The notes under the pieces were generated by a model. That model saw only the letters and a list, made by a program, of their open reading frames with translations. It did no database searches and was not told where the DNA came from. This document shows, piece by piece, positions 37,350 through 51,172 of a stretch of DNA of 51,428 nucleotides. The stretch is from an uncultured Magnetospirillum sp. (GTDB lineage: Bacteria; Pseudomonadota; Alphaproteobacteria; Rhodospirillales; Magnetospirillaceae): assembly GCF_903853455.1 (NCBI RefSeq), contig NZ_CAINTR010000137.1:1-51428 (forward strand), written 5' to 3'. How positions within the stretch are numbered: the first letter of the stretch is position 1; every line of letters starts with the position of its first letter. Position numbers and translations under genes: made by a program.

Positions 37350-39840
37350 GGGTGAAGGCGCCGGTGTCGGCCACGGCGGCGCGAATGGACGTCACAAGAA
37401 CCGGCGCATCGACAGGCGGCGGCGGCGGCTTGGGAGCATCGACAACGACGGGAGCGGGGGGCGGTGGAAGAGGCGGTGGCGGTGGCTTCTCCGGCGCGGT
37501 CGCAGTGAAGGTGATGGTATTGGAACCGGTCTTGGCTCCGCCAATGAAGGCGCTGCCGCCGTCATTGACCGACACTGTTATGATGTTGCTGCCAAAAGCC
37601 GTCGGGGTGTATTTCAGCGACCCCAAGGCGGCGTTGACCTGAGACCTGCTGCCGCTGACAGTGACCGAGGAACTGTCGTTGGCGCCCGCCGTCACCGTCG
37701 TCCCGTTCAGGGCGAGGTTGAGCATGCCGGTTGGAACCGACACACTGGCCGCATAGGTGCCACCGGCGGTGTCGGTGACCGAAATACCGGCCAGCGGCGC
37801 CTGAGCCAAGCTGGCTGCGTTCTGCACCGCCGGCAGATTGATCACCGGAATGTCATTGGCCACCACCGCCGCCGTCGAGGCCAAGGATACGCTGGTGGTG
37901 GTGTTGCCGCCATAGGTGGCGACGCCGCTATCCCTGATCTGGGTCAAAGTCACCACGCGATTGCCGGCAGTGGCATTGGCATTGGTATTCTCGTACTTCA
38001 ATCCGTTGATCAGCGCATTGGCGGCGCTGGCACTGAAATTTCCGGCCTTGGTGATGGTCACCGTGGTGACCGAGCCGCTGGGAGAGACATCGACGGAATA
38101 GGTATTGGCACCCGAAGTCACCGTGGTTGAGGCGTTGAGCGCCACCAGTGTTCCATCGACGCTCAGCTTCTCTGCCGCGCCGTCCACCACGTTGGAGACG
38201 GTCAGCATGATGGCGGAAACGCTCTGGCTGGCTTCGACGGGGCTGGCCGCCGTGTTGCTAAACAGGGCTGCCGACAGGGTCGAGGCGGTGTTGACCGTGA
38301 CGGTGCCGGTTGTCGTCGTCAGGGTCGGCGGATTGTCAACGGCATGCACTGCAACAGTGGTGGTCTGGGCCGAACTGTTGGCATACTGATCGTGCACCTG
38401 CCAAGAGATGGTGCGGGTGGCGGCATTGACCGCCGGATCGTTGGACGACGAGGTGAAGGTCACCGAGTCCAGCACCGCTTGGTAATTGGCGGCGGTATCG
38501 TTGCCGGTCAGGGTCAGCACCCCGCCGGTGTTACTGGCGATGGTGACATTGCCGGCCAAGGTGCAGGCCAAAGTATCGCCAGCGGTGTAATTGGCCGTGA
38601 TGCTGGCCGTCGCCCCGGTCATGATGGTGCTGTTGTCGGCGCCGACCGCCACGGTCAGGCCGGAATCCAGCACCTGCGCGGTGCCGCCACCGCCGACAGT
38701 CTCGGTCCAAGTCACCGAGGGATTGCCAGCGACCACCGTCGGACCCGAGGCGCCGGTGATGGTGAATGCCTGGGTATAGGAATTGCCCGAGCCGTTCTCG
38801 TCCTGGGCCTTCAGGAAGACATGATAGGCGGTACCGGCGGTGAGCGCCGTGCCGCCAACCACCAGATTGCCGCCAGTGATCGAGAACTTGGCATTGTCGG
38901 CGTCGTTGGTGCCGTTGCCCGCCGCCAAAGTATAGACCGTGGTGTCGCCGATGGTGCTGGCGTCGGTATCGGCCAGCGCCCCCACCACCGTCGCCGATGC
39001 CACCCCGGTGTAAATCCCCGTCGCGGCGCCGCCGATGGTGATGGCGGTGGGCGCATGGGTATCCAGCGTTACCCCGGTGGTGGACAGGGTGGCGTTGCTG
39101 TAGGCGCTGTTGGCATTGCCGGCAATGTCGGTCAACACCAAGCCTTCCACATCCACGGTGCCCCCCGACGCGATTTCCGTTCCATTCGAGGTGGCGAGGA
39201 AATGCGCGGTGACCGTGGTCGCGGTCTTGCTGTCATAGACCAACGAGTAGCCGTCGATGGTGCCCGCGATCCCGGTGAAGGTGTTGGTATCATTGGCGAT
39301 ACCGATGGTCACCGAAATATTGTTGGTCGTGGGATTGTAGGTTCCCGCCGCCAGCGTCACGCTGTTGATCACCGGGATCTGGTTGTCCAAGGTGTAGACA
39401 TTGGCGGTGCCGTTGAAGCCGGTGGTGGCGTGAACGCTGTTGTTGGCGTGGGAAACGATGCCGGTATAGGTGGTCAAGTCCAACTCGGCCGTGCCGTTGC
39501 CGGCCAGGCCGGCGACATGGACCGTATAGACGGTCGAGCCGGTCGAGCCTGCGGTGATGGAGATGGTTGGGGTGCCAGTTACCCCAGCGCCCTTGGTGAC
39601 GGTAAAATCTCCGGCCACCACGTTGTCGACCGCCTGACTGAAGGTGACGGTATAGTCCAGTCCACCGGTCCCTTTGGTCGGCGAGGAACCGGGCGTGGCA
39701 ATCGACGACACAGACGGCACCATGTTGACAGCGACGGAAGAGGTGCTCGACACGCTGGCGGAACCGCCATCGGTGGCGGTGACGGTTACCGTGGCCACCG
39801 GCTCGAACGGGTTGGCGACAATGACGCAGGTGGCGGTCAT
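37306..39840 (-). CDS. Repeat-rich cadherin/adhesin-like protein with a phage tail-tip-like N-terminus
   Basis: 844 residues. The first 13 (MTATCVIVANPFE) look like the start of a phage tail-tip (J-like) protein and overlap the NlpC/P60-like gene as in a tail operon. From about residue 15 onward it is a Thr/Ser/Gly-rich series of bacterial Ig/cadherin-like repeats (DYTVTFSQAVDNVVAGDFTV, VTWTETVGGGGTAQVLD, SVSAIMLTVSNVVDGAAEKLSVDGT), ending in a Pro-rich stretch. No signal peptide. It is best read as a deletion fusion of a tail gene to an adhesin; the C-terminal tail may be cut as well. Confidence 0.7.
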   Translation of the reverse strand: MTATCVIVANPFEPVATVTVTATDGGSASVSSTSSVAVNMVPSVSSIATPGSSPTKGTGGLDYTVTFSQAVDNVVAGDFTVTKGAGVTGTPTISITAGSTGSTVYTVHVAGLAGNGTAELDLTTYTGIVSHANNSVHATTGFNGTANVYTLDNQIPVINSVTLAAGTYNPTTNNISVTIGIANDTNTFTGIAGTIDGYSLVYDSKTATTVTAHFLATSNGTEIASGGTVDVEGLVLTDIAGNANSAYSNATLSTTGVTLDTHAPTAITIGGAATGIYTGVASATVVGALADTDASTIGDTTVYTLAAGNGTNDADNAKFSITGGNLVVGGTALTAGTAYHVFLKAQDENGSGNSYTQAFTITGASGPTVVAGNPSVTWTETVGGGGTAQVLDSGLTVAVGADNSTIMTGATASITANYTAGDTLACTLAGNVTIASNTGGVLTLTGNDTAANYQAVLDSVTFTSSSNDPAVNAATRTISWQVHDQYANSSAQTTTVAVHAVDNPPTLTTTTGTVTVNTASTLSAALFSNTAASPVEASQSVSAIMLTVSNVVDGAAEKLSVDGTLVALNASTTVTSGANTYSVDVSPSGSVTTVTITKAGNFSASAANALINGLKYENTNANATAGNRVVTLTQIRDSGVATYGGNTTTSVSLASTAAVVANDIPVINLPAVQNAASLAQAPLAGISVTDTAGGTYAASVSVPTGMLNLALNGTTVTAGANDSSSVTVSGSRSQVNAALGSLKYTPTAFGSNIITVSVNDGGSAFIGGAKTGSNTITFTATAPEKPPPPPLPPPPAPVVVDAPKPPPPPVDAPVLVTSIRAAVADTGAFTHGSLVVARGAVRSG

Positions 39841-40241
39841 GGCGGGTTTCCGATAAAGCGATAGAAGCCCTCGATTGCCCAGCCGTTGAGACGCAGCGCA
39901 TCAGGACGCTGGAACACCACCCCGGATTCCCGCGAGCAATGCAGCACGCCGCCGCCATCCACCTCGAGCCAGATGCCGACATGGATGGGATGGCGCGACT
40001 GGCGCAGCAGAACGCAATCGCCTTCCATGGGCTCGGGCACCCTGGCCCAGCGCCGCCGCTCGGGGTGGTCACGGAAGGTGCGGCCCATGACCAGGATGTC
40101 TTCGGGGTTGGCGATCTCGGCCAGGGTGCGGCCGAAATGGCGGCTCTGCACCATGCGGACGAATTCCCAGCAATTGAACAGGTCCGGCCCGCTGCCGTGG
40201 ACGGACCACGGCAGGCCGATCAAAGCGGTTGCCCAGTGCAT
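39837..40241 (-). CDS. NlpC/P60-like cysteine peptidase of phage tail
   Basis: 134 residues with the NlpC/P60 pattern: catalytic Cys24 in LFNCWEFVR and His87 in HPIHVGIWLE. Phage tail proteins of this kind (K-like) cut peptidoglycan during entry. In tail operons it normally precedes a tip protein, and here its stop overlaps the next start (ATGA). The 71 bases before it hold two small hairpins, one at 40266-40283. Confidence 0.85.
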   Translation of the reverse strand: MHWATALIGLPWSVHGSGPDLFNCWEFVRMVQSRHFGRTLAEIANPEDILVMGRTFRDHPERRRWARVPEPMEGDCVLLRQSRHPIHVGIWLEVDGGGVLHCSRESGVVFQRPDALRLNGWAIEGFYRFIGNPP

Positions 40242-40312: not shown

Positions 40313-40831
40313 TCACCGCGCCAAGCCGGGAAACCGCTGGGCGGTATAGGTGATGGACGGAAAGGACTTGTTGCCGGCGTCCAGCATGCGGGCGCGACCG
40401 GTGACGCGGAGCGTGTCGGCCTCAACCTCGGACAGGGTCAAGGTGATCGGCGGGTCCATGTGCGGCCCTTCCAGGTCGGTGGAGAGGAAGGGCCGGTAGA
40501 TGATGTCGATCTTGTCCTGGCTGATGGCGGCGGCCTCCAGGGCATCGACGATCTCCTGGCCGACATTGTCGAGCGTGACCGCGATCTCCGGCACCGGCGC
40601 GGTATCCACCGGCGGCAGATCGAGATCGAAGGCCAGCGCCACGAAGCCGACCATTTGGCCGGCATCACGCGGCGCCCCGGTTTCCAGCCGGGCGGTCAGC
40701 TCGGCGTGGTCGCGCACCACCCGGATCGGTTCGGTGAAGGTGGGGTGCCAGATCTCCAGGGTGTGCAGGATCACCGTGTCGGCGGGCGCGGCGGCATAGG
40801 CCTGCGGCGACGTTATGGCAGGTGGCAACAT
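40313..40831 (-). CDS. DUF1833-family phage tail protein
   Basis: 172 residues. From about residue 10 it has the DUF1833 layout: ADTVILHTLEIWHPTFTEPIRVVRD, GQMVGFVALAFDLDLPPVDT, VTLDNVGQEIVDALEAA, IIYRPFLSTDLEGPHMDPP and the end YTAQRFPGLAR. Family members lie in tail tip operons before NlpC/P60 genes. The first few residues are shared, in another frame, with the radical SAM gene, so the native start seems lost at a deletion junction near 40800; expression may now depend on the overlapping ATG at 40831. Confidence 0.85.
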   Translation of the reverse strand: MLPPAITSPQAYAAAPADTVILHTLEIWHPTFTEPIRVVRDHAELTARLETGAPRDAGQMVGFVALAFDLDLPPVDTAPVPEIAVTLDNVGQEIVDALEAAAISQDKIDIIYRPFLSTDLEGPHMDPPITLTLSEVEADTLRVTGRARMLDAGNKSFPSITYTAQRFPGLAR

Positions 40832-41855
40832 TGCCCATCAGGTCGACGGCGATGGTCCTGGGCGTGTCCATGCCGCACTTCTGCCACAGGCTCTCGGACG
40901 GCCGATGGGAAGCCAGCGCGGTGAAGAAACCGGTGATCTTCTGGTGCACGGTGGGCAGGGCGAGGCCATCCCAGTCGGTGAAGTCGCGGGCCAGCACCCG
41001 GCCGATGGCCCGATGCTCCGCTTCTCCGGTCGGAGAAAACAGCAGCGAGCCGGGATCGTAGGGGGTGAGGAATTCGCCGGTGGCGACGGTGATGTCGGCG
41101 ATGCCTGTCTTGGCGACGAACCAGCGGCGGATCGCCGCCACCTCATAGTTCCGGGCGGTGACCATGAAGTTGAAGCTGAGCCGGCGCTGGGGGTGGAAGC
41201 GCCGGATCAGTTCCCGCAGCGCCGGCCCGGCAACCGGGTGGTCGAAGGGATCTGGCCCACGGTCGGCCTGGCCTGGACCGTCGTGGGAGACGGCCAGAAA
41301 AAAGCCCATCTCGTCCAACCAGGCGACCTTGTTCATGTCTAGCAGCGAGCCGTTGGTGAACATGAACAACTCGCTGAGGTTGGGATAGCGGGTCCTCAGC
41401 CCCGGCACCAGCCGGCGCAGCGTCTTCCAGTAGACGAAGGGCTCTCCGCCCCAGATCTCGAAGCGCACGCCTCTGCCCAGACCATCTTCGCCGCCGTCGA
41501 ACCAGCCCGGCATGGAGTCGAGAAAGCGCTCGACCTCGGCGGGTGACCCACCGACCGTGGCCCGGTGTTCGCTCTGGCTGCAATAGCCGCAGGAATAATT
41601 GCAGGTTTTGCCCAGCATGATTTTGATGCGCCGGAGGTCGCGGGTTTTGGCCACCGGGTGGCCGCGACCGACCGCCACAGCCGGACGATGGCCGAGGAAG
41701 CGGTCGGCGTAGCCGAGATGGATCCGGCCGAGATCGGGCAGCCTGCCATCGGCGAAGATCAGGCTTGAGTCGTGGGGGCGCCAGAATAGGGTCGCGCCTC
41801 CGCCCTCCGGTTTCTCCATCAGGAGCCGGAATTCGATATCGTCGAAGCTTTGCAT
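40665..41855 (-). CDS. Radical SAM protein 2, C-terminally truncated SPASM-type
   Basis: 396 residues with the radical SAM CxxxCxxC at Cys85, Cys89 and Cys92 (KTCNYSCGYCSQ), FEIWGGEPFVYWKTLRRLV and SHDGPG later. A C-terminal SPASM-like Cys region starts (QKCGMDTPRTIAVDLMGNVATCHN, Cys346) but then shifts into an unrelated Arg/Pro-rich read-out that overlaps the DUF1833 gene out of frame. The downstream Cys ligands expected for a complete SPASM cluster are absent. Its start overlaps the stop of radical SAM protein 1 (TGATG). Likely damaged, though the core is intact. Confidence 0.85.
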   Translation of the reverse strand: MQSFDDIEFRLLMEKPEGGGATLFWRPHDSSLIFADGRLPDLGRIHLGYADRFLGHRPAVAVGRGHPVAKTRDLRRIKIMLGKTCNYSCGYCSQSEHRATVGGSPAEVERFLDSMPGWFDGGEDGLGRGVRFEIWGGEPFVYWKTLRRLVPGLRTRYPNLSELFMFTNGSLLDMNKVAWLDEMGFFLAVSHDGPGQADRGPDPFDHPVAGPALRELIRRFHPQRRLSFNFMVTARNYEVAAIRRWFVAKTGIADITVATGEFLTPYDPGSLLFSPTGEAEHRAIGRVLARDFTDWDGLALPTVHQKITGFFTALASHRPSESLWQKCGMDTPRTIAVDLMGNVATCHNVAAGLCRRARRHGDPAHPGDLAPHLHRTDPGGARPRRADRPAGNRGAA

Positions 41856-42925
41856 CAGGGTTTCCGGTTGGCGTCGAAGCGGCGGGACACCGCGTCGAGG
41901 GAGCGGGCACGGGCGTAATAGGCCGCAGCCAGGTGACGGTTGGCGGCGATGAAGGCGCCCAGATCCTGGCCGTCGGCCCGCAGGCGGTCGAACAGGCGTA
42001 GCCGCAGGGCGCAGTCGTTGGCATGGACCTCAGAGCGCTCCAGCGGGCAGCCGCCCTGGCAGAGATCCCAGGCCCGGCAGCCGGCGCAGGCGGGATCAAC
42101 CGCATGGCCGGCGTAGAGAGACCGCCGAGCCGCGATCACCTCGGCCAGGGAAGAGTCCCGCCAGTCGGCGAAGGCCAACTCGGCCGAGTACCCCTTGTTG
42201 CAGGAATAGGCCTTGCCGTCGGCTCCGAGCTCCAGCCAGAAGCAGCCGTTGCCGGCGAGACTGCACAGCCCGGCCTGGAAGCCGAGGCAGCGCCAAACCT
42301 GGCAGGAATCATAGAGCCAGTCGGCGAAGCGGAGTTGCTGTTCGGCCGTCATGCCGTGGGGACCGGAGAGCAACTGGAAGAACAGGAATTGCCGCTGGGC
42401 GATCATTTCCTCCACCCAGGTAGCGTAGGCGTCGAGGCGTTTCACCGTGTGGCCCCCGACGCAGGACAGCACGTAGGTCTGATAGCCGCGCCGGTTTAGT
42501 TCCTGGAGCCCCGCCCAGGCGCGGTCGAAGGACCGCCCGCGCATGATCTCGTGGATCGGCTTGGGGCCGTCGAGGGTGATGCCGACCTTGAGGATGCCGC
42601 GCGACGGCATCGCGGTCTCCAGCCGGTCGAGCCATTCCCCGTCGATCATGGTGCCGTTGCTCTGAAGCCCGACCAGCCGGCCGGAGCGCAGGTGGATCAT
42701 GGTCGCCATCCGCCCCAGGCTCTCGGGAGCCAGCAGACCCGGCTCGGCGCCATGGAGGTGGACATTGCCGATGGCCATGCCCTCCCGCTCAGCCTTGGCG
42801 AGCACATCGGTCAGCGCAGTTTCTGCGTCGAGCGTATCGTCCCCCGAGCGCCGCTCCAGCGGCAGGTAGCAGTATCGGCAGCGAAGGTTGCAGCTCCGAT
42901 TGACGGCGAAGAAGATGTTGAGCAT
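41855..42925 (-). CDS. Radical SAM/SPASM protein 1
   Basis: 356 residues. CxxxCxxC at Cys12, Cys16 and Cys19 (RSCNLRCRYCYLPLE) binds the SAM-cleaving cluster; HLHGAEPGLL is the GGEP-like motif and LDGPKPIHEIMRG follows. The C-terminal SPASM region carries many Cys (CLGFQAGLCSLAGNGCFW, AYSCNKGY, CAGCRAWDLCQGGCPLE) for auxiliary Fe-S clusters. SPASM enzymes modify peptides or proteins at Cys or other residues. It starts one base after the Ig-like gene and overlaps radical SAM protein 2. Confidence 0.95.
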   Translation of the reverse strand: MLNIFFAVNRSCNLRCRYCYLPLERRSGDDTLDAETALTDVLAKAEREGMAIGNVHLHGAEPGLLAPESLGRMATMIHLRSGRLVGLQSNGTMIDGEWLDRLETAMPSRGILKVGITLDGPKPIHEIMRGRSFDRAWAGLQELNRRGYQTYVLSCVGGHTVKRLDAYATWVEEMIAQRQFLFFQLLSGPHGMTAEQQLRFADWLYDSCQVWRCLGFQAGLCSLAGNGCFWLELGADGKAYSCNKGYSAELAFADWRDSSLAEVIAARRSLYAGHAVDPACAGCRAWDLCQGGCPLERSEVHANDCALRLRLFDRLRADGQDLGAFIAANRHLAAAYYARARSLDAVSRRFDANRKP

Positions 42926-42926
42926 G

Positions 42927-43832
42927 TCACACCACCGGGATGGAGATATCGGCCAAGCCGGTGAACAGCCCGAGGCCTGCCTTGACCCGCACCGCTTCGC
43001 CCGTTTCCAGGCCCAGCGCCATTACCTTGAACGTGCCGGTGCCGCCCGCGACGGCGACCCGGGCCTTGGGCAAATAGCCGGCAACGGCTTCCAGCAACAC
43101 CTCGCAGGCGGCGTCGGCGATCACCGCGCCATCCTTGTCGACCACCGCGACAGTAATGTTGGCGGCCCCATCGGGGGCAACGGCGGTGGGACCGGTCAAT
43201 TTCAGCGACGGCAGCACCTGCTCGCGCGGCAGGAACGGAGCCTCGGGCGGCAACGTGCCCGTGGATTCGAGATTGCCGATCAGCCCCAGATCGGGATGAG
43301 CGTTGACCAGCAGCGGGAAGCGGGCCAGGGGCCAAGCCTTGAACGGCACCATCAGGCGAAGCGGACAGAGGTGGCCGCCGCGCGCCCGGTGCCACGGGCC
43401 GGCGGTCTTGGCCAGCGCCGTCTCGACCACGCGATTGAACGGCGATTGCAGTCGGCCCTCGGGCGACAGCCGGAATTCCCACACCGCGTGGTCGGACCAT
43501 TCCTTACCAAAGCTGTCCCGGTCGGCGAGATCGAACAGCATCTCGTCCAGCATCAGGAAACCGCGCCCCGGCCGGCCGAGGGCGTCGCCGGGCAGGAGTG
43601 GAGCCGGTATGGTCGAGGGAGGCGCGGGAAATTTCCGGCTCGCCTGGGTGCCGACCACGGCATCCGCTTCCGGATCCAGCGCCGCCCGGCCACTGATCCT
43701 GCCATGCCGGCCGGATACGCCGTCGACGACATCTTCGTAGAGACGGAGCGTCAATTGGGTTTCCGCGCGCACCACCTCCACCAGCACCGGCAACTCCAGC
43801 CGGTCCATGACAATGACCTGGGGGTCCAGCAT
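42927..43832 (-). CDS. Phage tail-region protein with a C-terminal Ig-like domain
   Basis: 301 residues. The first 200 are unrecognised (LDEMLFDLADRDSFGKEWSDHAVWEFRL, PFNRVVETALAKTAG). The last 90 look like a Big_1/bacterial Ig domain (LTGPTAVAPDGAANITVAVVDKDGAVIADA and GEAVRVKAG), frequent in phage surface proteins. Six bases separate it from the Hint gene. It may be part of the tail tip or a scaffold for the Hint/radical SAM partners. Confidence 0.65.
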   Translation of the reverse strand: MLDPQVIVMDRLELPVLVEVVRAETQLTLRLYEDVVDGVSGRHGRISGRAALDPEADAVVGTQASRKFPAPPSTIPAPLLPGDALGRPGRGFLMLDEMLFDLADRDSFGKEWSDHAVWEFRLSPEGRLQSPFNRVVETALAKTAGPWHRARGGHLCPLRLMVPFKAWPLARFPLLVNAHPDLGLIGNLESTGTLPPEAPFLPREQVLPSLKLTGPTAVAPDGAANITVAVVDKDGAVIADAACEVLLEAVAGYLPKARVAVAGGTGTFKVMALGLETGEAVRVKAGLGLFTGLADISIPVV

Positions 43833-43837
43833 GGGCG

Positions 43838-44830
43838 TTACCCGCGAATGAAGCCGTCGACCACGTAGCCACCGGCGACGAAGCCGCGGGCGCCGTCGAG
43901 GGCGAGGCAGAAGAGATCGAGATCTGCCGAGACATCGGCCATCGGGATGATCGACCGTGCTGGTTGAAGGCTGCCGTCCCCCCGGACCAGCGGTATGCCG
44001 TCGCCGATTTTGACAATGGACGCGGGTGGCAGGATGGCGTTGATCATGGGAACGACGGTCCCGGCCTCATCCACGGTCACGGGGAACATTTGGCCGAAGC
44101 GGCGCTCGGCATAGAGGGCGGGCAGGATGGCGCCCCAGCCGGATGCGGTCCGCAGCAGGTGGTCGCCGGTGGTGCGCAAGGTGCCATTGACCTCGAACAG
44201 CACCCGGTCGCCGAGCTTGACCCGGTAGAGCCCGACGACGGTGGCGATCCGGTTGGACTCGCCCATTACCTTGTCGCCGATCCGCACCCCGGCGATGGCA
44301 CGCAGCGAGCCATCGGCCATGGCGACCGGCGTCGCGGCCGGGAAGCAGGAGCCGCAGTTGCAGCAATTGCAGTTACAGTTGCAATTGCAGTTGGAATAGC
44401 AGTTGACCTGCTGGTTGCTGCTACCGGCACCGCAATTGCAGTTGGACCAGGTGCGCTCGTAGATGTCCTGGTTACCCCGGCTCTCCACCAGGGCATAGCT
44501 GCCATAGATCTTGTCGTTGACGGTGGTGATGGCCTGATCCTGGGTGGTCTGGCCGCCGACGAAGTCGTAGCCGGGATTGTAGACGCCGCTTCGGATGATG
44601 GTGCCGCCGCTGCGGTTGCCGGCAGAACCGGCGATACCGGGCCAGGTCCACCAATTGCCGCTGGGCATGGTCCAGAGGGGATCGCCGCCGCAATTGCCGC
44701 CCAGGATCAACCCGTTGCAATTGGCGCCCTGCTTCTCGCGGTAGCTGACCGAGCGAGGCCGGGTGGTCAGTTCCTGGGAATCGCTCACCCGGTTGCCGGG
44801 GTGGTCGATCAGCGCCTGATTCTTGATCAT
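43838..44830 (-). CDS. Cys-rich protein with a C-terminal Hint domain
   Basis: 330 residues from ATG 44830. Residues 1-130 carry two Cys in Gly-rich turns (GANCNGLILGGNCGGDP). Residues 131-160 are an Asn-Cys repeat (C131, C133, C144, C148, C150, C152, C154, C156, C157, C159). Cys162 begins a Hint (Hedgehog/intein) fold: CFPAATPVAMADGSLRAIAGVRIGDKVMG, TTGDHLLRT and a final FVAGGYVVDG. The last residues lack the usual His-Asn, so splicing is unlikely but N-terminal cleavage at Cys162 is conceivable. Two radical SAM genes follow in the operon. Confidence 0.8.
   Translation of the reverse strand: MIKNQALIDHPGNRVSDSQELTTRPRSVSYREKQGANCNGLILGGNCGGDPLWTMPSGNWWTWPGIAGSAGNRSGGTIIRSGVYNPGYDFVGGQTTQDQAITTVNDKIYGSYALVESRGNQDIYERTWSNCNCGAGSSNQQVNCYSNCNCNCNCNCCNCGSCFPAATPVAMADGSLRAIAGVRIGDKVMGESNRIATVVGLYRVKLGDRVLFEVNGTLRTTGDHLLRTASGWGAILPALYAERRFGQMFPVTVDEAGTVVPMINAILPPASIVKIGDGIPLVRGDGSLQPARSIIPMADVSADLDLFCLALDGARGFVAGGYVVDGFIRG
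44345..44401 (-). repeat. Asn-Cys codon repeat in the Hint-domain gene
   Basis: The sequence encodes YSNCNCNCNCNCCNCGSC, residues 145-162. The DNA is built from near-copies of AACTGCAATTGC, so it has likely expanded by slippage, but it stays in frame. Confidence 0.85.
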
Positions 44831-44832
44831 GG

Positions 44833-45033
44833 TCAGTAATCCCCACCGAAGGCGGTAATTTCCAGGGCGGTACCGCCGGTACTGTTGGCATAGGCCAGGG
44901 CATGGATGCGCGATCCCCGGATGGCGGTATCCGAGGGCGCCCGCCACAGAATGCGCGGACGGGCGGCGAAATCCGGGACCAGGGCGAGCTGCTCTGTCCG
45001 GTAATTGCCGATATAGGCGGGGCTGGCGGCCAT
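44833..45033 (-). CDS. Small phage tail-region protein
   Basis: 66 residues (MAASPAYIGNYRTEQLALVPDF...). Two bases before the Hint gene and nine after the fibre-like gene. Unrecognised; likely structural, of a size seen in tail operons. Confidence 0.6.
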   Translation of the reverse strand: MAASPAYIGNYRTEQLALVPDFAARPRILWRAPSDTAIRGSRIHALAYANSTGGTALEITAFGGDY

Positions 45034-45042
45034 GGGGAACCT

Positions 45043-45891
45043 CTAGAATCCGTGGGACAGCAGGAACAGGTAGGCGCCGTCATTGGGCGGCATGACGGAG
45101 GCCGGCAGCCGGCCGTCGGCCTGGACCGCCGGCACCTGTCCGGGGGCAGTGCCGAAATCCTTGGCGGCGATACTGCCCAGGATGCCGGCGGCGATATCGG
45201 CGGCCAGGATCTTGCCGCCCTTCTTCAGCAGCTTGCCGGTGGCGCCGTCGAAGCGGACCAGTTCGCCGTCGGTAGCGTTGGCCGGGCCATCGACCAGAGC
45301 GCCGCGGGAATGGACGTGATCCTCGCGTGACGCGAAGTTGGCCGCACCGGTGGCGGCATTGCCCAGCACCTGGGGCACCGCGTTGCCGAGATTGGCGGCG
45401 GGGCCGGTGTCGCCCTTGGCGGCCAGCAGATCCCAATAGGCGGCATTGGGCGGCTGGCGATTGGTGTGAGCCTGACGGCAGACATAGCTGGTGCCGTTCA
45501 GGGTTACCGCGTCGCGGTTGGCATAGGCGATGGTTCCATCCCACGGCCCCTGCCACATGATCTTGGCCACCTGGGCGGCCTGGGCCGAGGCGGCAGCGGA
45601 GGTGGCCGAAGCGGCGGCGGCATCGCGGGCGCCAAGCGTGGTCGCCTTGTCGGCCGCCACCTGGGCCGCCCCGGCCACCGCCTGGTCACGGGCGCCTAAG
45701 GTGGTGGTGCGGGCGCTGTCGACATCACCGAACGCCGCCACCACATCGGCGATAGCTTTGGCCACCGTCTTGACCGGGCCGGACTCGGTGACCACCGTCG
45801 AGACGGCATTGCCGTGGACGATGTCGTGCAGCAGATTGCCATCCGCCGTCACCTTGGCGACGGCGGTCTGCAGATCGGTTTGCAAGCTCAT
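45043..45891 (-). CDS. Phage tail fibre-like protein
   Basis: 282 residues: Ala-rich helical region (ARDAAAASATSAAASAQAAQ) with a repeated TTLGARD segment, a carbohydrate-binding-like WQGPWDGTIAYANRDAVTLNGTSYVCRQAHTN...AYWDLLAAKGDTGPA part (CBM5/12-like plus collagen-like turn), then NFASREDHVHSRGA, common in fibre proteins. Likely trimeric. Confidence 0.75.
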   Translation of the reverse strand: MSLQTDLQTAVAKVTADGNLLHDIVHGNAVSTVVTESGPVKTVAKAIADVVAAFGDVDSARTTTLGARDQAVAGAAQVAADKATTLGARDAAAASATSAAASAQAAQVAKIMWQGPWDGTIAYANRDAVTLNGTSYVCRQAHTNRQPPNAAYWDLLAAKGDTGPAANLGNAVPQVLGNAATGAANFASREDHVHSRGALVDGPANATDGELVRFDGATGKLLKKGGKILAADIAAGILGSIAAKDFGTAPGQVPAVQADGRLPASVMPPNDGAYLFLLSHGF

Positions 45892-45897
45892 GGCGGT

Positions 45898-46395
45898 CTA
45901 CCAGGACAGGGGGCCGGGAAGGCTGGAATGGATCAGGTGGTGGAAGCCATCGACCGATCCGAACAGGGCGGTGGGCTCGCTGTCGATCACGATGTCGAGC
46001 GCGCCCTCGTCGAGCATCGGACGCTCCCGGATCTCCAGGATCGAGGTGACGATCCAGACACCACCCCGGCTGGGAACCGCCTTGTAGGGAACGCTGCTCT
46101 GGCCGACGAAGCGGGCCTCGTGCGAGACCATGCCGATGCCGCCGAGCAGGCCGATGGAGAACCATTGGGCGCCATCGCCCAGCTTCAGGCGGAACCACGC
46201 CTCGAAGGTGGCGAAATCCACCGGCCCAAACCGCCACCGCACCGGGATGCGGGTCGGCACCTGGGTGAAGCGACGACGTGTCCGTGCCGGTCCCGCCTCC
46301 ATCTCGGTGCGCAGGCAGGCATCCTGCGGTTCCACCGACATGCCGTCAAAGGTCGGCAGCGGCAGCCGGGACGGCCAGGAGATGGTGGTGGTCAT
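45898..46395 (-). CDS. Phage minor tail protein, function unknown
   Basis: 165 residues (LPTFDGMSVEPQDACLRTEMEAG...WFRLKLGDGAQWFSIGLLGGIG). Location between the tape measure and fibre-like genes fits a minor tail protein. No family assigned. Six bases before the fibre-like gene. Confidence 0.65.
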   Translation of the reverse strand: MTTTISWPSRLPLPTFDGMSVEPQDACLRTEMEAGPARTRRRFTQVPTRIPVRWRFGPVDFATFEAWFRLKLGDGAQWFSIGLLGGIGMVSHEARFVGQSSVPYKAVPSRGGVWIVTSILEIRERPMLDEGALDIVIDSEPTALFGSVDGFHHLIHSSLPGPLSW

Positions 46396-46460
46396 CGGCG
46401 CACCCGGCTAATGGCATTCTTTGGCAAACCATGCCATAATGTCGCCGACAGGAGGTGCCC

Positions 46461-46694
46461 ATGGCGACGATGAATGTTTCCCTGCCCGATCCCATGCGGG
46501 AATGGGTGGAAGCCCAGATCAAGGGTGGCGAATACGCCAATGCCAGCGACTACATCCGCGACCTGATCCGTCACGATCAGCGGCGGACCCAAGCGCTGGA
46601 GGCCGCCATCGACGAGGGACTGAAGAGCGGACGCAGCCCGCGCAAGGCGGACGACATCATGGCCGAGGCCAAGGCTCGCCTGCGGCATGGGTGA
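46461..46694 (+). CDS. ParD-like antitoxin
   Basis: 77 residues with a ribbon-helix-helix start, ATMNVSLPDPMREWVEAQI, and NASDYIRDLIRHDQRR of the CC2985/ParD family. AGGAGG lies four bases before the ATG. The toxin start overlaps its end by eight bases. It lies on the opposite strand inside the tail operon. Confidence 0.92.
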   Translation: MATMNVSLPDPMREWVEAQIKGGEYANASDYIRDLIRHDQRRTQALEAAIDEGLKSGRSPRKADDIMAEAKARLRHG

Positions 46695-46983
46695 TTACGT
46701 CCTTTCCAATGCCGCCGACGCTGATTTGGCTGAGATATACGTCTATTCCCACCGGAGCTTCGGCGAAGCCCAGGCGGATGCTTATTACGGTGATCTGTCC
46801 GGCTGCCTGCGAATGCTGGCCGACAATCCCCGTCTGGGGCGCTCGGCGGGGACTCGACACCAAGAGCTGCTGCGCCACGCCCATGCCGGGCATGTAATCT
46901 ATTATCTGATCGAGGATGCGGGCATTTTCGTCGTTCGGGTGCTGCATCATTCCATGGACAGCGAACGCCACATCGATTCCTGA
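46687..46983 (+). CDS. ParE-like toxin
   Basis: 98 residues with YVLSNAADADLAEIYVYSHRSFGEAQADAYYGDL, ADNPRLGRSAG and a C-terminal FVVRVLHHSMD, the ParE pattern. ParE-type toxins inhibit gyrase. It pairs with the ParD-like gene. Confidence 0.92.
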   Translation: MGDYVLSNAADADLAEIYVYSHRSFGEAQADAYYGDLSGCLRMLADNPRLGRSAGTRHQELLRHAHAGHVIYYLIEDAGIFVVRVLHHSMDSERHIDS

Positions 46984-46986
46984 CCG

Positions 46987-49851
46987 CTACCGATAGGCCC
47001 CCGCCGCCGGGTTCAGGCCGTAGCGATGCTCCAACACCGGGGCCATGCCCTCGCCGCGACCGATGCGTCGGTTCATGCGGCCCTCGATCTCCTCGACGAT
47101 GATGTCGAGCTGGATACGGCCATCCGGTCCCTGGGATTGCTCGGCGCGGGCCTGAGTGCCCGAGGCGTTGTTGTTGACTGTCACCACGACGCCGACCGCC
47201 GGCTGCGACAGCGCGACACTCAGGAGGCGGTCGGCATTGTCCATCTGCCGGGGGGTGAAGACGCCCTCACCCACCTTGGCGACGATGGGACGCTCGCCGG
47301 CCACCAGCCCGCCACCATGGAACTTCGGGGCATTGGCGAAGACCAAGGGATCGAACGAGCGGGTTTCCAGCCGGTCGGAGCCGATCAGTCCGCCGGTATG
47401 AGCGATGGCGAAATTACCGGTATCTGACACCGGCACCGATCCGCCGCCGCTGCTTCCGCCCCCGGAGAACAGGCCGCCCAGACCGCTGAGCAATCCGCCG
47501 AACAGGCCACTCCCCGCACCGGCGGCACCGAACAGCGGCGCCACGATGGCCATGCGATAGGCCGCCCGCACCGCTTCCTCGGCAATGGTGTTGAACAGAT
47601 CGGTGGCCGACAGCTTGCCGGTGGTGGCCCATTTGACGAAGGCATCCTCGGTGGACTTCAGGGCATGGGTCAGCCCCTGCTCCATGGCGGTGGCGGAATC
47701 CTCGATGGAGCGGCGATAGCTGATCAACGCCCGCTCGGCCCCCGACACCCAATCCTTCTCGGCCGACAGGCGGCGCAGGGCAGCATCCTCGGTGGCGCGG
47801 GCATATTGCTGCTCGGTGACCAGGGCGCCTTCCTTGGATTGGCGCAACCGGTCGATGGCGTCGATTTCCTCCTGGTAGGTCAGGGCTGGATTGAGCGACT
47901 TGGCTTTGGCCAGCAGATCCTGGCGCTGGCGTTCGACGTCGAGGGCCTGGAGCCGGGTGCGCAAGGCCGCCTCGTCGAGACCTTCATCCTCGTGCCGGCG
48001 CGACGCCTCGGTGGCGATGCCTTCCTGGCGGGCGGCTTCGGCTCCCCGCATACGGGCATCGGCCAGACGCCGCTCGGACTCGATCTGGCGGTCGAGATCA
48101 TGGGCGGTGGTAGCCTCGCGGTTGCGGCGCTCGGACTCGGCCTTGGCGTCGAAGGCCGTCCCCAGCGCATCGCGGTCGGCGAAGGGGTTCTTCTTGGCTT
48201 CGGCTTCGACGAACACCTGCTTCTGCGCCGCCAGCTTGGCATCATAGCCCTTGCCGATGGCAGCGGTCAGGGTGTCGGTCGCTTGCGCTTCCCGCAGCAT
48301 GGCGATGATGGAATCCCGCGTGGCGGTGGCGAGCTTGAGCTTGGCCTCGCCCAGGCGCAGCGCCTTCAGTTCCGCCGCCCCTTGGCTGCCGAGGTTGAGC
48401 TTGAGCGCCTCGTCCTCGGCCTTGATCGCCACCAGGGCTAATTCCCGCGCCGCCTGGGGCAGGCGCATGGCGGCGGCGGTCTTGGCGTATTCCGACTGGA
48501 GATCGACCAGCTTCTTGCGGTCGCGCTCCAGGGCATCATTGGCTTCGGTCTCGGGCGACACCACCGGGGCCGGTGGCGGCCGCATGGGGGCCGACAGGCT
48601 CTTGCCGTCCTTGCCGATGGTGATGCCGGTGCGACGCTCGTCCTCGATGCGGGCCAGCTCCGCCTTGGCGTCGGCCAATTGCTTATCGATATTGCCGCGG
48701 GCAAAATCGGTGACCACCGTTTTGCGCAAAGATTCCAGATCGGCGATCTTGTCCTTGAGGCTGGTGACCTGGGCCTCCTGGTTGCCCAGCAGCGCCGCCG
48801 CCCCGGTGATCAGCGAGGTCAGCGCGTTGCGGGCGCCCTCGACCATGCCGGTGTGCGACAGGGTTTCGAGCAGATGCTCCCAGGCGAGGCCAAGATCATG
48901 GGCGGCCTTGGCGGCCCCGCCCATGCCCTCCTCGGCCAAGCCCTTGAAGCGGGCATTGGCCTTGTCGAGGAACAGCGTCACCGCCTCGACCTTCTGGCCG
49001 TGCTCGAACAGGGTGCGGATGTTGGCGAGTTCGCTGGCAGTGAGCAGGTTCCACTGCTCGTCGAAGCGCTTCACCCCCTCGTAGCCCTTGGTCACCGCAT
49101 CGGCCAGTTGCTCGGCGCCCTTGGCCATGTCCTGGCCCGATGCGGCAGAGAAGTCCCCGGCCAGACCGGCGACGCGGCGGAAGGTATCCCCGCCGAGTTG
49201 GTTGTTCTTCAGCAGGGACTGGACCATGGCGACAGCGTCGTCATGGCCGAACGGCCCCTTCTGGCTGGCACTGGTGATGACCGATTTGAGGTCGCCCACC
49301 GAGAGGCGGGCCGAATCGCCCATGGCCTTCAGCGCCACCGACAGGCGGCGGGCCTCATCCTCCATCTTCATCAGATGGGACAGGCCCAGCGCCACCGGCG
49401 CGGCCAGTGCCGCCACCGCGACGCCCCAGCCCATCACGGCGAGACTGCCGGCCCCGAACACCGAGGTGAGGCGCATCCCCTCCATGGCGAAGGTGCGGAC
49501 CGGGCTGGCGCCCGCCATCAGCATCTCGGCCGAGGCCCGCACCGAATGGCTCACCGCCTGGATCTGCCAGGTGGCCATGCCGTGGGCATTGCCCATGGCG
49601 GTGACCGCGCCACCGGCCTCGGCGCAGCGATCCTTGAGCAGCTTGAGGAAACGGCCATGCTCGTCAGTGGTGACGGAACCGCGCTTCAACGCCTCGGCCA
49701 GCATGTCCTGGCCTCGCGCCATCTGCTCCTGGGCGCGGATGGAGTCCTTGAAGGACAGTCTTGTGTAACCGTTGGCCGGCGGGGTGCCGTAGGCGGTCTC
49801 GAATGCGGCCAGCAGCACGCAATCGGCACCGTAGGCGCGCGTCTTCGCCAT
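46987..49851 (-). CDS. Phage tape measure protein with a tail tube-like N-terminus (fusion)
   Basis: 954 residues. The first 36 (MAKTRAYGADCVLLAAFETAYG...) match the start of phage major tail tube proteins. From about residue 37 it is a tail length tape measure protein: hydrophobic segment near 130-155 (SLAVMGWGVAVAALAAPVALGL), RLSVALKAMGDSARLSVGDLKS, long coiled coils (about 350-690), and a Gly-rich C-terminal part. A ribosome site (AAGGA) fits a tube gene. The layout suggests a deletion between the tube gene and the tape measure gene, removing the tube body and the assembly chaperones. Confidence 0.85.
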   Translation of the reverse strand: MAKTRAYGADCVLLAAFETAYGTPPANGYTRLSFKDSIRAQEQMARGQDMLAEALKRGSVTTDEHGRFLKLLKDRCAEAGGAVTAMGNAHGMATWQIQAVSHSVRASAEMLMAGASPVRTFAMEGMRLTSVFGAGSLAVMGWGVAVAALAAPVALGLSHLMKMEDEARRLSVALKAMGDSARLSVGDLKSVITSASQKGPFGHDDAVAMVQSLLKNNQLGGDTFRRVAGLAGDFSAASGQDMAKGAEQLADAVTKGYEGVKRFDEQWNLLTASELANIRTLFEHGQKVEAVTLFLDKANARFKGLAEEGMGGAAKAAHDLGLAWEHLLETLSHTGMVEGARNALTSLITGAAALLGNQEAQVTSLKDKIADLESLRKTVVTDFARGNIDKQLADAKAELARIEDERRTGITIGKDGKSLSAPMRPPPAPVVSPETEANDALERDRKKLVDLQSEYAKTAAAMRLPQAARELALVAIKAEDEALKLNLGSQGAAELKALRLGEAKLKLATATRDSIIAMLREAQATDTLTAAIGKGYDAKLAAQKQVFVEAEAKKNPFADRDALGTAFDAKAESERRNREATTAHDLDRQIESERRLADARMRGAEAARQEGIATEASRRHEDEGLDEAALRTRLQALDVERQRQDLLAKAKSLNPALTYQEEIDAIDRLRQSKEGALVTEQQYARATEDAALRRLSAEKDWVSGAERALISYRRSIEDSATAMEQGLTHALKSTEDAFVKWATTGKLSATDLFNTIAEEAVRAAYRMAIVAPLFGAAGAGSGLFGGLLSGLGGLFSGGGSSGGGSVPVSDTGNFAIAHTGGLIGSDRLETRSFDPLVFANAPKFHGGGLVAGERPIVAKVGEGVFTPRQMDNADRLLSVALSQPAVGVVVTVNNNASGTQARAEQSQGPDGRIQLDIIVEEIEGRMNRRIGRGEGMAPVLEHRYGLNPAAGAYR

Positions 49852-49878: not shown

Positions 49879-50307
49879 TCAGCCCAGCGGGTTATCGCTG
49901 GCGTAGTGAATGGTGACCGGCACCACCGCGCCCTTGAGACCGGCGGCGCCGTCGATGGCGAGGTCGCGGGTCTTGGCCGCGCCCCAGTCGAGCCAGTCGG
50001 CGAGGCCACCGAGACTACGGTCCCCGGCCAGGGCCAGGCCAACCGCCATCAACAGGCCGTCGAGAGCGGAATTGGCCTCGCTGGGGCCGCCGCTGACGAT
50101 CATTTCGACCTCGGCCTGGTGCTGCCACAGATAAGCCGGTGGCGACAGCAGCACCTCCGGATCGCCAGGATCGCCGTCGCGCAAGATGATCAGGCCGCCC
50201 GCCGGTACCGTCTCGGGCAGCGGTGCTTCGCGCTTCACCGTGGCGGCGGGGACGGTTTCCAGCCGCGCCAGCAGGGCGCACAGGATCTGCTCGCGGATGG
50301 TTGGCAT
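49879..50307 (-). CDS. Phage tail terminator-like protein
   Basis: 142 residues from MPTIREQILCALLARLETVPAATVKRE. WQHQAEVEMIVSGG and SALDGLLMAVGLALAGD are typical of tail completion/terminator proteins preceding the tube gene. Start selected over 50358 because the longer frame crosses into the intergenic space. Upstream of the tube/tape-measure fusion by 27 bases. Confidence 0.65.
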   Translation of the reverse strand: MPTIREQILCALLARLETVPAATVKREAPLPETVPAGGLIILRDGDPGDPEVLLSPPAYLWQHQAEVEMIVSGGPSEANSALDGLLMAVGLALAGDRSLGGLADWLDWGAAKTRDLAIDGAAGLKGAVVPVTIHYASDNPLG

Positions 50308-50372
50308 GGGCAATCCTTGAAACGTGCGCCAATAAGGCGTACATATTTGAAGCATCAATCGGAGCCACCGCT

Positions 50373-50654
50373 ATGCCCAGGACCGCCCAGCGCCAGGAGC
50401 GCATCAGCATTCGTCTCAGCCCGCAATCAAAGCGGAAGCTGGAGCGGGCTGCCGCCTACGCGGACAAGACGCTCACCGATTTCGTGGTCGATGTCGCCTT
50501 GCAGAAGGCGGATGCGGTGGTGCGCGAGCACGAGGTCATTACGCTCAACGCCGAGGAATGGGAGCGGTTCCAGGACTTGTTGCTCAATCCGCCCGAGCCG
50601 AACGAGAAGCTGCAGAGGGCGCTGGAAGAGCATTCGCGGATCGTGCGCCGGTGA
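50373..50654 (+). CDS. DUF1778-family antitoxin
   Basis: 93 residues of the DUF1778 ribbon-helix-helix type: ERISIRLSPQSKRKLERAAAYADKTLTDFVVDVALQKADAVV and a toxin-binding tail (LNAEEWERFQDLLLNPPEPNEKL). Partners of GNAT toxins (TacA/AtaR type). Overlaps the GNAT gene by four bases. On the opposite strand to the tail genes. Confidence 0.93.
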   Translation: MPRTAQRQERISIRLSPQSKRKLERAAAYADKTLTDFVVDVALQKADAVVREHEVITLNAEEWERFQDLLLNPPEPNEKLQRALEEHSRIVRR

Positions 50655-51172
50655 GCTTCGCTGCCGATTCGATCCAGATCGAGCCGCTTGATGCCCATCA
50701 TGACCGCTCGTCCTTCTCCTGCGGCAATGAGGCTCTCGACCGCTATATCCGCGAGCAAGCGGGCCAGGATGCGCGCCGGAATACCGCGCGGGTGTTCGTG
50801 GCCGTCATGCCGGATCGGCCCGAGCATATCCTTGGCTTCTTCACCTTGAGCGCCGCGACGGTGGCCGCTACCGACCTGCCGCCAGCAATGGAGAAGCGCC
50901 TGCCGCGACATCCCATTCCGGCAGCGCTGATCGGGCGGTTGGCCGTGGACCAGACCGTCGCTGGGCAGGGTCTCGGCAGCGTTCTGCTGGCCGATGCCGT
51001 CAAGAAGACCAAGGTGGCGGCGGAGACGGTCGCCATGTCGGTGATCGTCGTCGACCCCATCGACGATGGTGCGCAAAGATTCTACGCGTCGTTCGGGTTC
51101 CAGTCCCTACAGGGACCGCAGCACCGAATGTTCATGGCCATTCATGGTAGTGCTGCCAAATCAGTGCAGTGA
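50651..51172 (+). CDS. GNAT-family toxin (TacT/AtaT-like)
   Basis: 173 residues from GTG 50651. FSCGNEALDRYIREQAGQDARRNTARVFV at the N-terminus and the acetyl-CoA loop VDQTVAGQGLGSVLLADAV are typical of GNAT toxins that acetylate aminoacyl-tRNA. The ending GFQSLQGPQHRMFM is typical too. The GTG start is set by overlap with the antitoxin. Confidence 0.92.
   Translation: MSFAADSIQIEPLDAHHDRSSFSCGNEALDRYIREQAGQDARRNTARVFVAVMPDRPEHILGFFTLSAATVAATDLPPAMEKRLPRHPIPAALIGRLAVDQTVAGQGLGSVLLADAVKKTKVAAETVAMSVIVVDPIDDGAQRFYASFGFQSLQGPQHRMFMAIHGSAAKSVQ

Follow-up and report, generated by a model that had tools for sequence, protein, structure and literature searches.

The cassette and its enzymes

The window, by which we mean the whole stretch of DNA that was analysed, is the 51,428-nucleotide contig NZ_CAINTR010000137.1 (NCBI RefSeq assembly GCF_903853455.1) of an uncultured Magnetospirillum sp. 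Its prophage carries a tail operon, with all genes on the minus strand, in which a tail protein bearing an Asn-Cys repeat and a C-terminal Hint domain precedes an Ig-like protein and a pair of radical S-adenosylmethionine (rSAM) enzymes. We propose that these genes probably form a tail-fibre maturation cassette, in which rSAM/SPASM enzymes would modify the Cys-repeat tip, with thioethers as the probable product. Loci and genomes compared with the window are cited by our own L and G numbers. The genes and domains that matter here are the following.

45043..45891, minus: tail-fibre protein, 282 residues, without a Cys tail in the window (phrog_5073 tail fiber, E 4.9e-13; CBM_5_12)
43838..44830, minus: putative rSAM substrate, a tail protein of 330 residues with a Cys repeat and a C-terminal Hint domain
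44426..44797, minus: N-terminal fibre-tip domain of that protein, residues 12-135 (tblastn matches in viral contigs; alignment)
44345..44443, minus: Asn-Cys repeat, residues 130-162, running from Cys131 to Cys162, the latter being Cys1 of the Hint domain (NCNC columns conserved)
43841..44347, minus: Hint domain, residues 162-330 (Cys1 and TxxH, here TGDH, present; no C-terminal His-Asn)
42927..43832, minus: Ig-like partner protein, 301 residues (predicted C-terminal Ig-like domain)
41855..42925, minus: rSAM1, 356 residues (PF04055, TIGR04085, family alignment)
40665-41855, minus: rSAM2, family-aligned part 40804..41855 (family alignment; comparison with L410)
40313..40831, minus: DUF1833 minor tail protein, which follows the cassette in this phage group (PF08875, E 3.5e-59; phrog_396)

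An earlier note on this DNA had described a Cys-rich segment directly before Cys1 of a Hint domain, and this description holds. The 330-residue protein contains 14 Cys and 11 Asn-Cys (NC) pairs, with a longest NC run of 5; when its residues were shuffled 20,000 times, neither the pair count nor the run length was ever attained. The note had staked its proposal on conservation of the repeat, and the NCNC columns are conserved. Cys162 is Cys1 of the Hint domain, an assignment that draws on a Pfam match (Hom_end_hint, PF05203, residues 162-203, E 1.5e-7) whose 32.1 bits lie exactly at the curated cut-off, on Foldseek matches of the predicted fold to inteins and to the intein-like BIL2 structure 6y75 (E 1.8e-7, template modelling score 0.78 by target length for 6y75), and on the Cys1 and TxxH motifs; the Thr of TxxH is absent in the Hint domains of L195 and L416. 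The AlphaFold model of the whole protein has a mean predicted local distance difference test (pLDDT) score of 61.6 and is weak outside the Hint domain. The fibre-tip domain (residues 12-135) is common to many Hint-less phage fibres, and a homologue of the Hint protein with 63-64% identity was found at L415. The window protein ends ...YVVDGFIRG, with neither a C-terminal Asn nor a downstream extein; because the Asn is absent, splicing is not expected.

The same note had reported two coupled rSAM genes, one with a full SPASM Cys set. The genes do overlap (TGATG), and the SPASM cysteine set of rSAM1 is complete (TIGR04085, 31.0 bits, cut-off 27; PF04055, E 2.3e-17, over the cut-off); what had been missed is a C-terminal truncation of rSAM2. 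This second enzyme matches PF04055 at E 7.8e-5, below the cut-off, has the CxxxCxxC motif and matches phrog_1802 at E 9.8e-31. It leaves the family after '...GNVATCHNVA', and its frame continues across the start of the DUF1833 gene to 40665; in the family alignment the conserved SPASM cysteines stand after '...GNVxTCQN', just where the window copy diverges. At L410, from the same genus (genome G092), rSAM2 is full-length (446 residues). Aligned with the window, L410 shows 85% over positions 40804-43822 and 93% over 40313-40803, and about 685 bp of L410 between these two blocks are missing from the window, so that the truncation apparently arose by deletion. A further full-length rSAM2 lies on a 4790-bp contig of the window's own genome (L404, G000:C175), which over 2.4 kb shares 81.5% identity with the cassette of the window. 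This copy may act in trans, or rSAM1 alone may suffice in the window phage.

The 301-residue gene next to the Hint protein (43832-42927) was likewise correctly called Ig-like in the earlier note. Its AlphaFold2 model (pLDDT 86.3) predicts an Ig-like C-terminal domain with structural matches to GH2 and intimin domains, and matches seven phage proteins, all uncharacterised, along nearly its whole length. The partner family corresponds to no significant Pfam, NCBIfam or PHROG family and is homologous across the loci (alignment A4). A partner homologue stands upstream of the rSAM gene in 57 of the 68 loci, found through the enzyme, that have at least 1.5 kb upstream. Judged by these sequence comparisons, the Ig-like gene is the conserved third part of the cassette.

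Linkage between Cys-repeat tails and rSAM enzymes

Single-sequence searches with rSAM1 and rSAM2 of the window gave no relative in viral contigs, and a phage collection gave no match to rSAM1 or to the Hint protein; rSAM2 matched three Achromobacter records in that collection. The family was therefore reached through alignments and a DNA pattern.

Starting from the enzyme, we took the best 80 of 598 relatives of profile A3, which represents the rSAM2-type family. Among the 60 loci for which 3 kb or more of upstream sequence is available, 57 have a Cys-repeat open reading frame (ORF) upstream, or 56 under a stricter rule; a downstream Cys-repeat ORF was found in only 3 of 51. When the loci were clustered at 70% identity, all 16 decidable clusters had an upstream Cys repeat. 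L309, scored as a miss, is on the same contig as L007, which has the repeat; L382 ends in the weaker ACNCAGGACDCG; and the ORFs at L312 and L313, counted among the 60 distinct upstream ORFs discussed below, are spurious frames. Opposite-strand Cys-repeat matches appeared in 20 of 80 loci in the raw scan.

Linkage was also tight from the other side. Searching at the protein level gave 49 viral loci, most of them ending in NCNCNC without a Hint domain; 44 of these records match PF04055, 41 of them above the cut-off. Viral contigs were then scanned for exact DNA matches to four Asn-Cys units, with all counts made among the matches listed: 120 stretches were listed, and the 118 with new locus numbers were analysed (L031 and L035 were already known). 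The repeat was at the C-terminal end of an open frame in 90 of these 118. An rSAM gene was present in the fetched stretch for 73 of the 90 C-terminal NC tails, and the nearest one was downstream on the same strand in 73/73. Among the 28 loci classed as not C-terminal, three have an rSAM gene. L181 is a true case of a Cys-repeat and Hint protein; L082 has the gene 1.9 kb upstream; and L136, with two rSAM genes on the other strand, looks like chance.

The same pattern on genome contigs, again among the matches listed, gave 117 stretches that were mostly simple repeats. None of the 18 with a coding-like C-terminal frame had an rSAM gene in the locus, and a distant one was seen for 2 of the 99 others. 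Included in these 99 is one true case, L195 (Rhodospirillales metagenome-assembled genome, PFFW01000023.1), a Cys-repeat and Hint protein; the rSAM2-type enzyme is encoded on the same strand about 2 kb further downstream, just beyond the locus that was fetched.

As a control we examined 21 viral loci encoding the same DUF1833 protein (76-98% identical). Both a Cys-repeat fibre and an rSAM gene at this place were seen in L069 only (1/21 each), and a hidden Markov model of the partner, rebuilt without the fused L411 sequence, matched only L069 among these operons. The order at L069 is fibre (...KNCNCNCMG), Ig-like gene, full rSAM/SPASM enzyme of 442 residues (phrog_1802, E 3.3e-52) and DUF1833; L069 and L406 are one place, on a contig of 52,222 bases, entered in two different counts. 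Two control operons, L065 and L068, have less than 1.4 kb before DUF1833, too short to show a fibre, and the NCNC at L053 lies within an unrelated 143-residue frame and is not C-terminal. One other rSAM match in the control set, G055, was weak, of another kind and upstream of the tape measure, and was rejected as unrelated.

Within bacterial genomes the enzyme family was found in 10 of 149 related genomes, among them 5 of 17 from the window's genus (its own included), and in 1 of 398 genomes across the phylum, namely the window's own, with at most four candidates per genome scored in this last survey. This distribution fits a phage-borne family. Of 13 genomic regions fetched, 11 have a Cys-repeat tail; L404 is a short contig. 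At L411 (G092:C59) a fusion joins the start of a tail-tube gene to the final part of the Ig-like partner; an intact rSAM gene follows, no Cys-repeat fibre precedes the fused gene, and we regard this as another decayed copy.

The repeat and the fibres that carry it

In the enzyme-first set, which was picked without regard to Asn, 509 of 735 Cys in or before the repeats follow an Asn (69.3%), where Asn makes up 13.6% of these residues. Its repeat units are Asn-Cys in 236 of 378 cases, Ala-Cys in 80 and Asp-Cys in 33. In a wider set of 153 tail proteins, chosen for Asn-Cys units, 1216 of 1609 Cys (75.6%) come after Asn. The repeats comprise 3-11 units and sit on 12-14 fibre domains that have no BLASTP link at E 1e-4, two of the 14 clusters (L413, L086) being probably spurious frames. 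Some of the fibres have collagen-like shafts (L002-L006, L009).

Most of the proteins are fibres of about 100-700 residues. The most peptide-like members of the family are frames of 67-82 residues at L077, L083, L117/L125 and L141, in which an NC run stands a few residues before the stop and one to four rSAM genes follow downstream. A Tyr-Cys-Ser repeat (YCSYCSYC) replaces Asn-Cys in L344, L350, L376, L408 and L409, beside the same partner and rSAM genes. Near position 3530 of L153, the NC run of a 134-residue protein is preceded by a CQ/QC repeat (QGCQTCQGCQ...), and rSAM genes flank this protein on either side.

The Hint domain is an optional part, and most tails end at the repeat itself. 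Among 60 distinct upstream Cys-repeat ORFs of the enzyme-first set, three have a Hint domain; 54 of the other 57 end at most 10 residues past the repeat and 16 exactly at it, in a count that set no limit on the residues after the repeat. In a collection of 163 Hint-less tails, from which tails with at least 60 residues after the repeat were left out, the median is 3 residues and 55 end at the repeat. Where the Hint domain occurs, its position is regular. Nine distinct proteins found by motif (ten rows, with L391 and L415 being one gene) have Hint Cys1 adjoining the repeat or following within about three residues, and L001 and L336 were added by eye. L415 and L416 each combine such a protein with one rSAM gene. 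The earlier note had suggested looking for co-occurrence in other prophages, and every listed Cys-repeat and Hint protein with more than about 2 kb downstream does have an rSAM gene there; that of L017 ends at its contig end.

L410 offers a natural swap. It keeps the Ig-like gene and both rSAM genes, and no Hint protein lies between these and the neighbouring fibre, which bears an NC tail instead. This is the same fibre that lies upstream of the cassette in the window, and it ends ...GAYSNCNCNCNCACCNCCGG, the C-terminal end of this counterpart of the 282-residue fibre being YSNCNCNCNCACCNCCGG.

Proposed function and alternatives

The cassette as it recurs consists of a fibre or tip protein with an Asn-Cys-rich repeat at its end, an Ig-like partner, and one or two rSAM/SPASM enzymes. 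Together, the linkage, the order of the genes and their joint gain or loss indicate that the target of the rSAM enzyme is the Cys-repeat tail or something that cannot be separated from it. Action of the enzymes on the repeat was the core of the earlier note, and two-way co-occurrence and the 21-operon control argue strongly for it; we consider it very likely, judging by gene neighbourhoods. Late in infection, once the tail protein has been made, its Cys repeat would be modified by the enzymes. Cys sulphurs would be joined to carbons of neighbouring residues, the usual neighbour being Asn, and a flexible C-terminal end would thereby become a compact, stable tail tip. Within a run of Asn-Cys units, each Cys except the first is also preceded by an Asn at a distance of three residues. 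Thioethers are common products of SPASM rSAM enzymes, and we lean towards thioether cross-links as the most likely chemistry, while a ring with the adjacent residue, comparable to the thiomorpholine of the enteropeptins, is also conceivable. Where a Hint domain is present, it would cut at its own first Cys. Since Hint-less tails end at or near the repeat, this cleavage would give the same kind of end. More tentatively than for the chemistry itself, we favour the view that a thioether-bearing Asn-Cys tip on about a dozen unrelated fibre types, with Hint as an option, represents a widespread and so far undescribed form of virion maturation.

Several observations weigh against this interpretation. 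In 17 of the 90 C-terminal pattern tails no rSAM gene is present in the fetched stretch. Nine of these records hold one elsewhere and eight do not; seven of the eight have 104-1436 bases downstream of the repeat, the L121 repeat sits at its contig end, and L123, which has 4.0 kb downstream and no rSAM gene, looks spurious. L334 is a clear exception from the other side, with an enzyme and no Cys repeat in 7 kb upstream, and the Ig-like partner is less frequent in the pattern set (45 of 73 loci). Profile A3 was built from enzymes first found beside Cys tails, and because the searches described above have contigs in common, they are not independent of one another and their counts are not additive. 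Ala, Asp, Gln or Tyr precedes Cys in some repeats, so Asn need not be the acceptor. Window rSAM2 has lost most of its SPASM domain, and for this reason the window copy may be decaying. The best match of A3 in the PDB, 8vpo (E 1.5e-20), is limited to the core, and the share of the profile matched by 5wgg is equalled by sulfatase-maturating enzymes (4k37). Curated maturase models have cut-offs far above the rSAM scores in all matches listed. Finally, about 70 N-terminal residues precede the rSAM core, and Pfam found no RRE-type peptide-binding domain, including in these residues.

The strongest of the alternatives, which we nonetheless think unlikely, accepts that the rSAM enzymes modify the Cys repeat and holds that no thioethers are made. 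Alternating residues would be epimerised or altered, or carbon and sulphur changed in some other way, and free thiols would then bind metal or form disulphides. Many tails have a strict two-residue period, and alternation of D and L residues suits such a repeat; rSAM epimerases exist, and YydG, which we take to be one, is among the weak PDB matches of A3. However, rSAM1 and the full-length rSAM2-type copies have the full auxiliary Cys set in SPASM, and such domains are typical of cross-linking maturases. Furthermore, across the 378 repeat units Cys is constant while the residue before it varies, which suggests that the sulphur is essential, with the caveat that the repeat was searched for by its Cys.

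A second and considerably less probable alternative is that the repeat binds metal or an iron-sulphur cluster, with the rSAM enzyme serving some other role in tail assembly, for example on the Ig-like partner. The density of Cys would fit metal binding, and the partner gene does stand between tail and enzyme. Yet the partner family has no invariant Cys (alignment A4), so that the partner is unlikely to be a Cys substrate of the enzyme. Cys fibres and enzymes are also found together at loci without a detected homologue of the partner (such a homologue is lacking in 11 of the 68 enzyme-first loci and in 28 of the 73 pattern loci), and in the Achromobacter phages the middle gene is unrelated to the Ig-like partner.

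The earlier note had also suggested that the Hint domain releases or tethers the modified segment, giving a tail-tip protein or an exported peptide. In a third alternative the freed segment would be an exported toxin or signal resembling ribosomally synthesised and post-translationally modified peptides. The recurrent position of Hint directly after the repeat (nine distinct proteins, plus L001 and L336) speaks for such a release, but we consider it more doubtful still. A cut at the domain's own Cys1 leaves the repeat on the fibre, only 3 of 60 upstream ORFs have a Hint domain at all, the others nearly all ending within 10 residues of the repeat, and L410 has its NC tail directly on a fibre. 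Besides the tail NlpC/P60 protein, we recognised no exporter or protease among the annotated or family-matched genes examined. The position of the Hint domain instead fits a dispensable C-terminal part that would be removed, and the Hint-centred side of the note's proposal has to be revised. Finally, phage rSAM genes have been read as metabolic boosters (PMC2853527), but two-way linkage, fixed order and strand and the 21-operon control make it very improbable that these are auxiliary metabolic genes or cargo placed beside a fibre gene by chance.

Relation to known systems

The maturation that we propose most resembles the ranthipeptide and sactipeptide systems (CteB/SCIFF, PapB/freyrasin, NxxcB), in which an rSAM/SPASM enzyme is encoded beside a Cys-rich or repetitive substrate. 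Profile A3 matches 5wgg, which we take to be CteB, along most of its length (E 3.5e-15), and the Achromobacter enzyme matches the PapB model at E 3.5e-16, far below its cut-off. CteB is described as a thioether maker (PMC8326336), NxxcB as an rSAM enzyme that joins Cys to Asn in a thioether via the beta carbon (PMC8326336, PMC13361665), and enteropeptins as holding a thiomorpholine ring (PMC13361665). The differences are that here the repeat is Asn-Cys, an Ig-like partner is conserved, and no listed maturase model reaches its cut-off; instead of a short leader-core precursor, the substrate would be the C-terminus of a phage fibre, mostly of a few hundred residues.

The His-Xaa-Ser system also places two rSAM enzymes of different size (HxsB/HxsC) beside a repeat protein, whereas here an Asn-Cys repeat stands in a phage tail operon. 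Its equivalog models lie far above our enzymes, at 51.0 of 370 and 26.1 of 267.9 bits for the L069 enzyme and 25.1 and 22.5 bits for window rSAM2. Like Hint/BIL and hedgehog domains, the Hint domains found here have Cys1 after the cut site, TxxH (or SxxH) in most, and an intein-like fold; unlike them, the domain in the window lacks a C-terminal Asn, directly follows a phage-tail Cys repeat, and is dispensable family-wide.

The phrog_1802 proteins of Achromobacter phages JWF and 2-1 belong to the same enzyme family and share the layout of a Cys-repeat and Hint fibre, one gene and an rSAM gene. They differ in that the middle gene is non-homologous, and their annotation is only radical SAM or sulfatase-maturating enzyme, with no substrate named in the records examined. 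PMC3899368 lists JWF as a temperate siphovirus. Campylobacter phages CP220 and CPt10 also encode rSAM genes, 11 and 12 of them, with five in one exchangeable cluster, and these are read as metabolic in PMC2853527. The stretch of CP220 that we examined, in which Cys repeats were not searched for, mixes clamp-loader, tail-assembly and baseplate genes with metabolic ones.

In the open-access PMC literature that was searched, preprints aside, we found no description of an rSAM-modified phage tail protein. This type of chemistry is known, and its setting in a phage tail appears new. Most of what is known of rSAM maturases concerns small peptides and a few enzymes. If the proposal is true, the fibre tip that meets the host differs chemically from its gene-encoded sequence, which would change the prediction and modelling of receptor-binding proteins, and the family would be a new source of rSAM enzymes acting on large proteins. 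Many phage rSAM genes labelled hypothetical or metabolic would become testable tail-maturation genes. The repeat, the Hint domain and the enzyme are already present together in two isolated and sequenced phages of Achromobacter, JWF and 2-1.

Other features of the tail operon

The remaining genes of the operon identified in the window are the following.

49851-46987, minus: tail-tube/tape-measure fusion, 954-residue ORF
45898..46395, minus: virion structural protein, upstream of the fibre (phrog_384, E 4.8e-36)
44833..45033, minus: 66-residue ORF between the fibre and the Hint protein
39837..40241, minus: NlpC/P60-like tail protein (PF00877; phrog_329)

At the position of the 66-residue ORF, L415 holds a longer counterpart of 218 residues that is alike at start and end. 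The 954-residue ORF (46987-49851, minus strand) has a tail-tube-like start (MAKTRAYGADC...) and continues as a tape measure, which in relatives such as L069 is a separate gene of 999 residues. This would be a second deletion fusion, and the prophage of the window is therefore probably defective. Within the tail operon, a small two-gene unit lies on the opposite strand (46455-46983, plus), presumably resembling a ParD/ParE-type toxin-antitoxin pair. Two overlapping genes at 50223-51172, also on the plus strand, resemble what we take to be a DUF1778/GNAT toxin-antitoxin pair.

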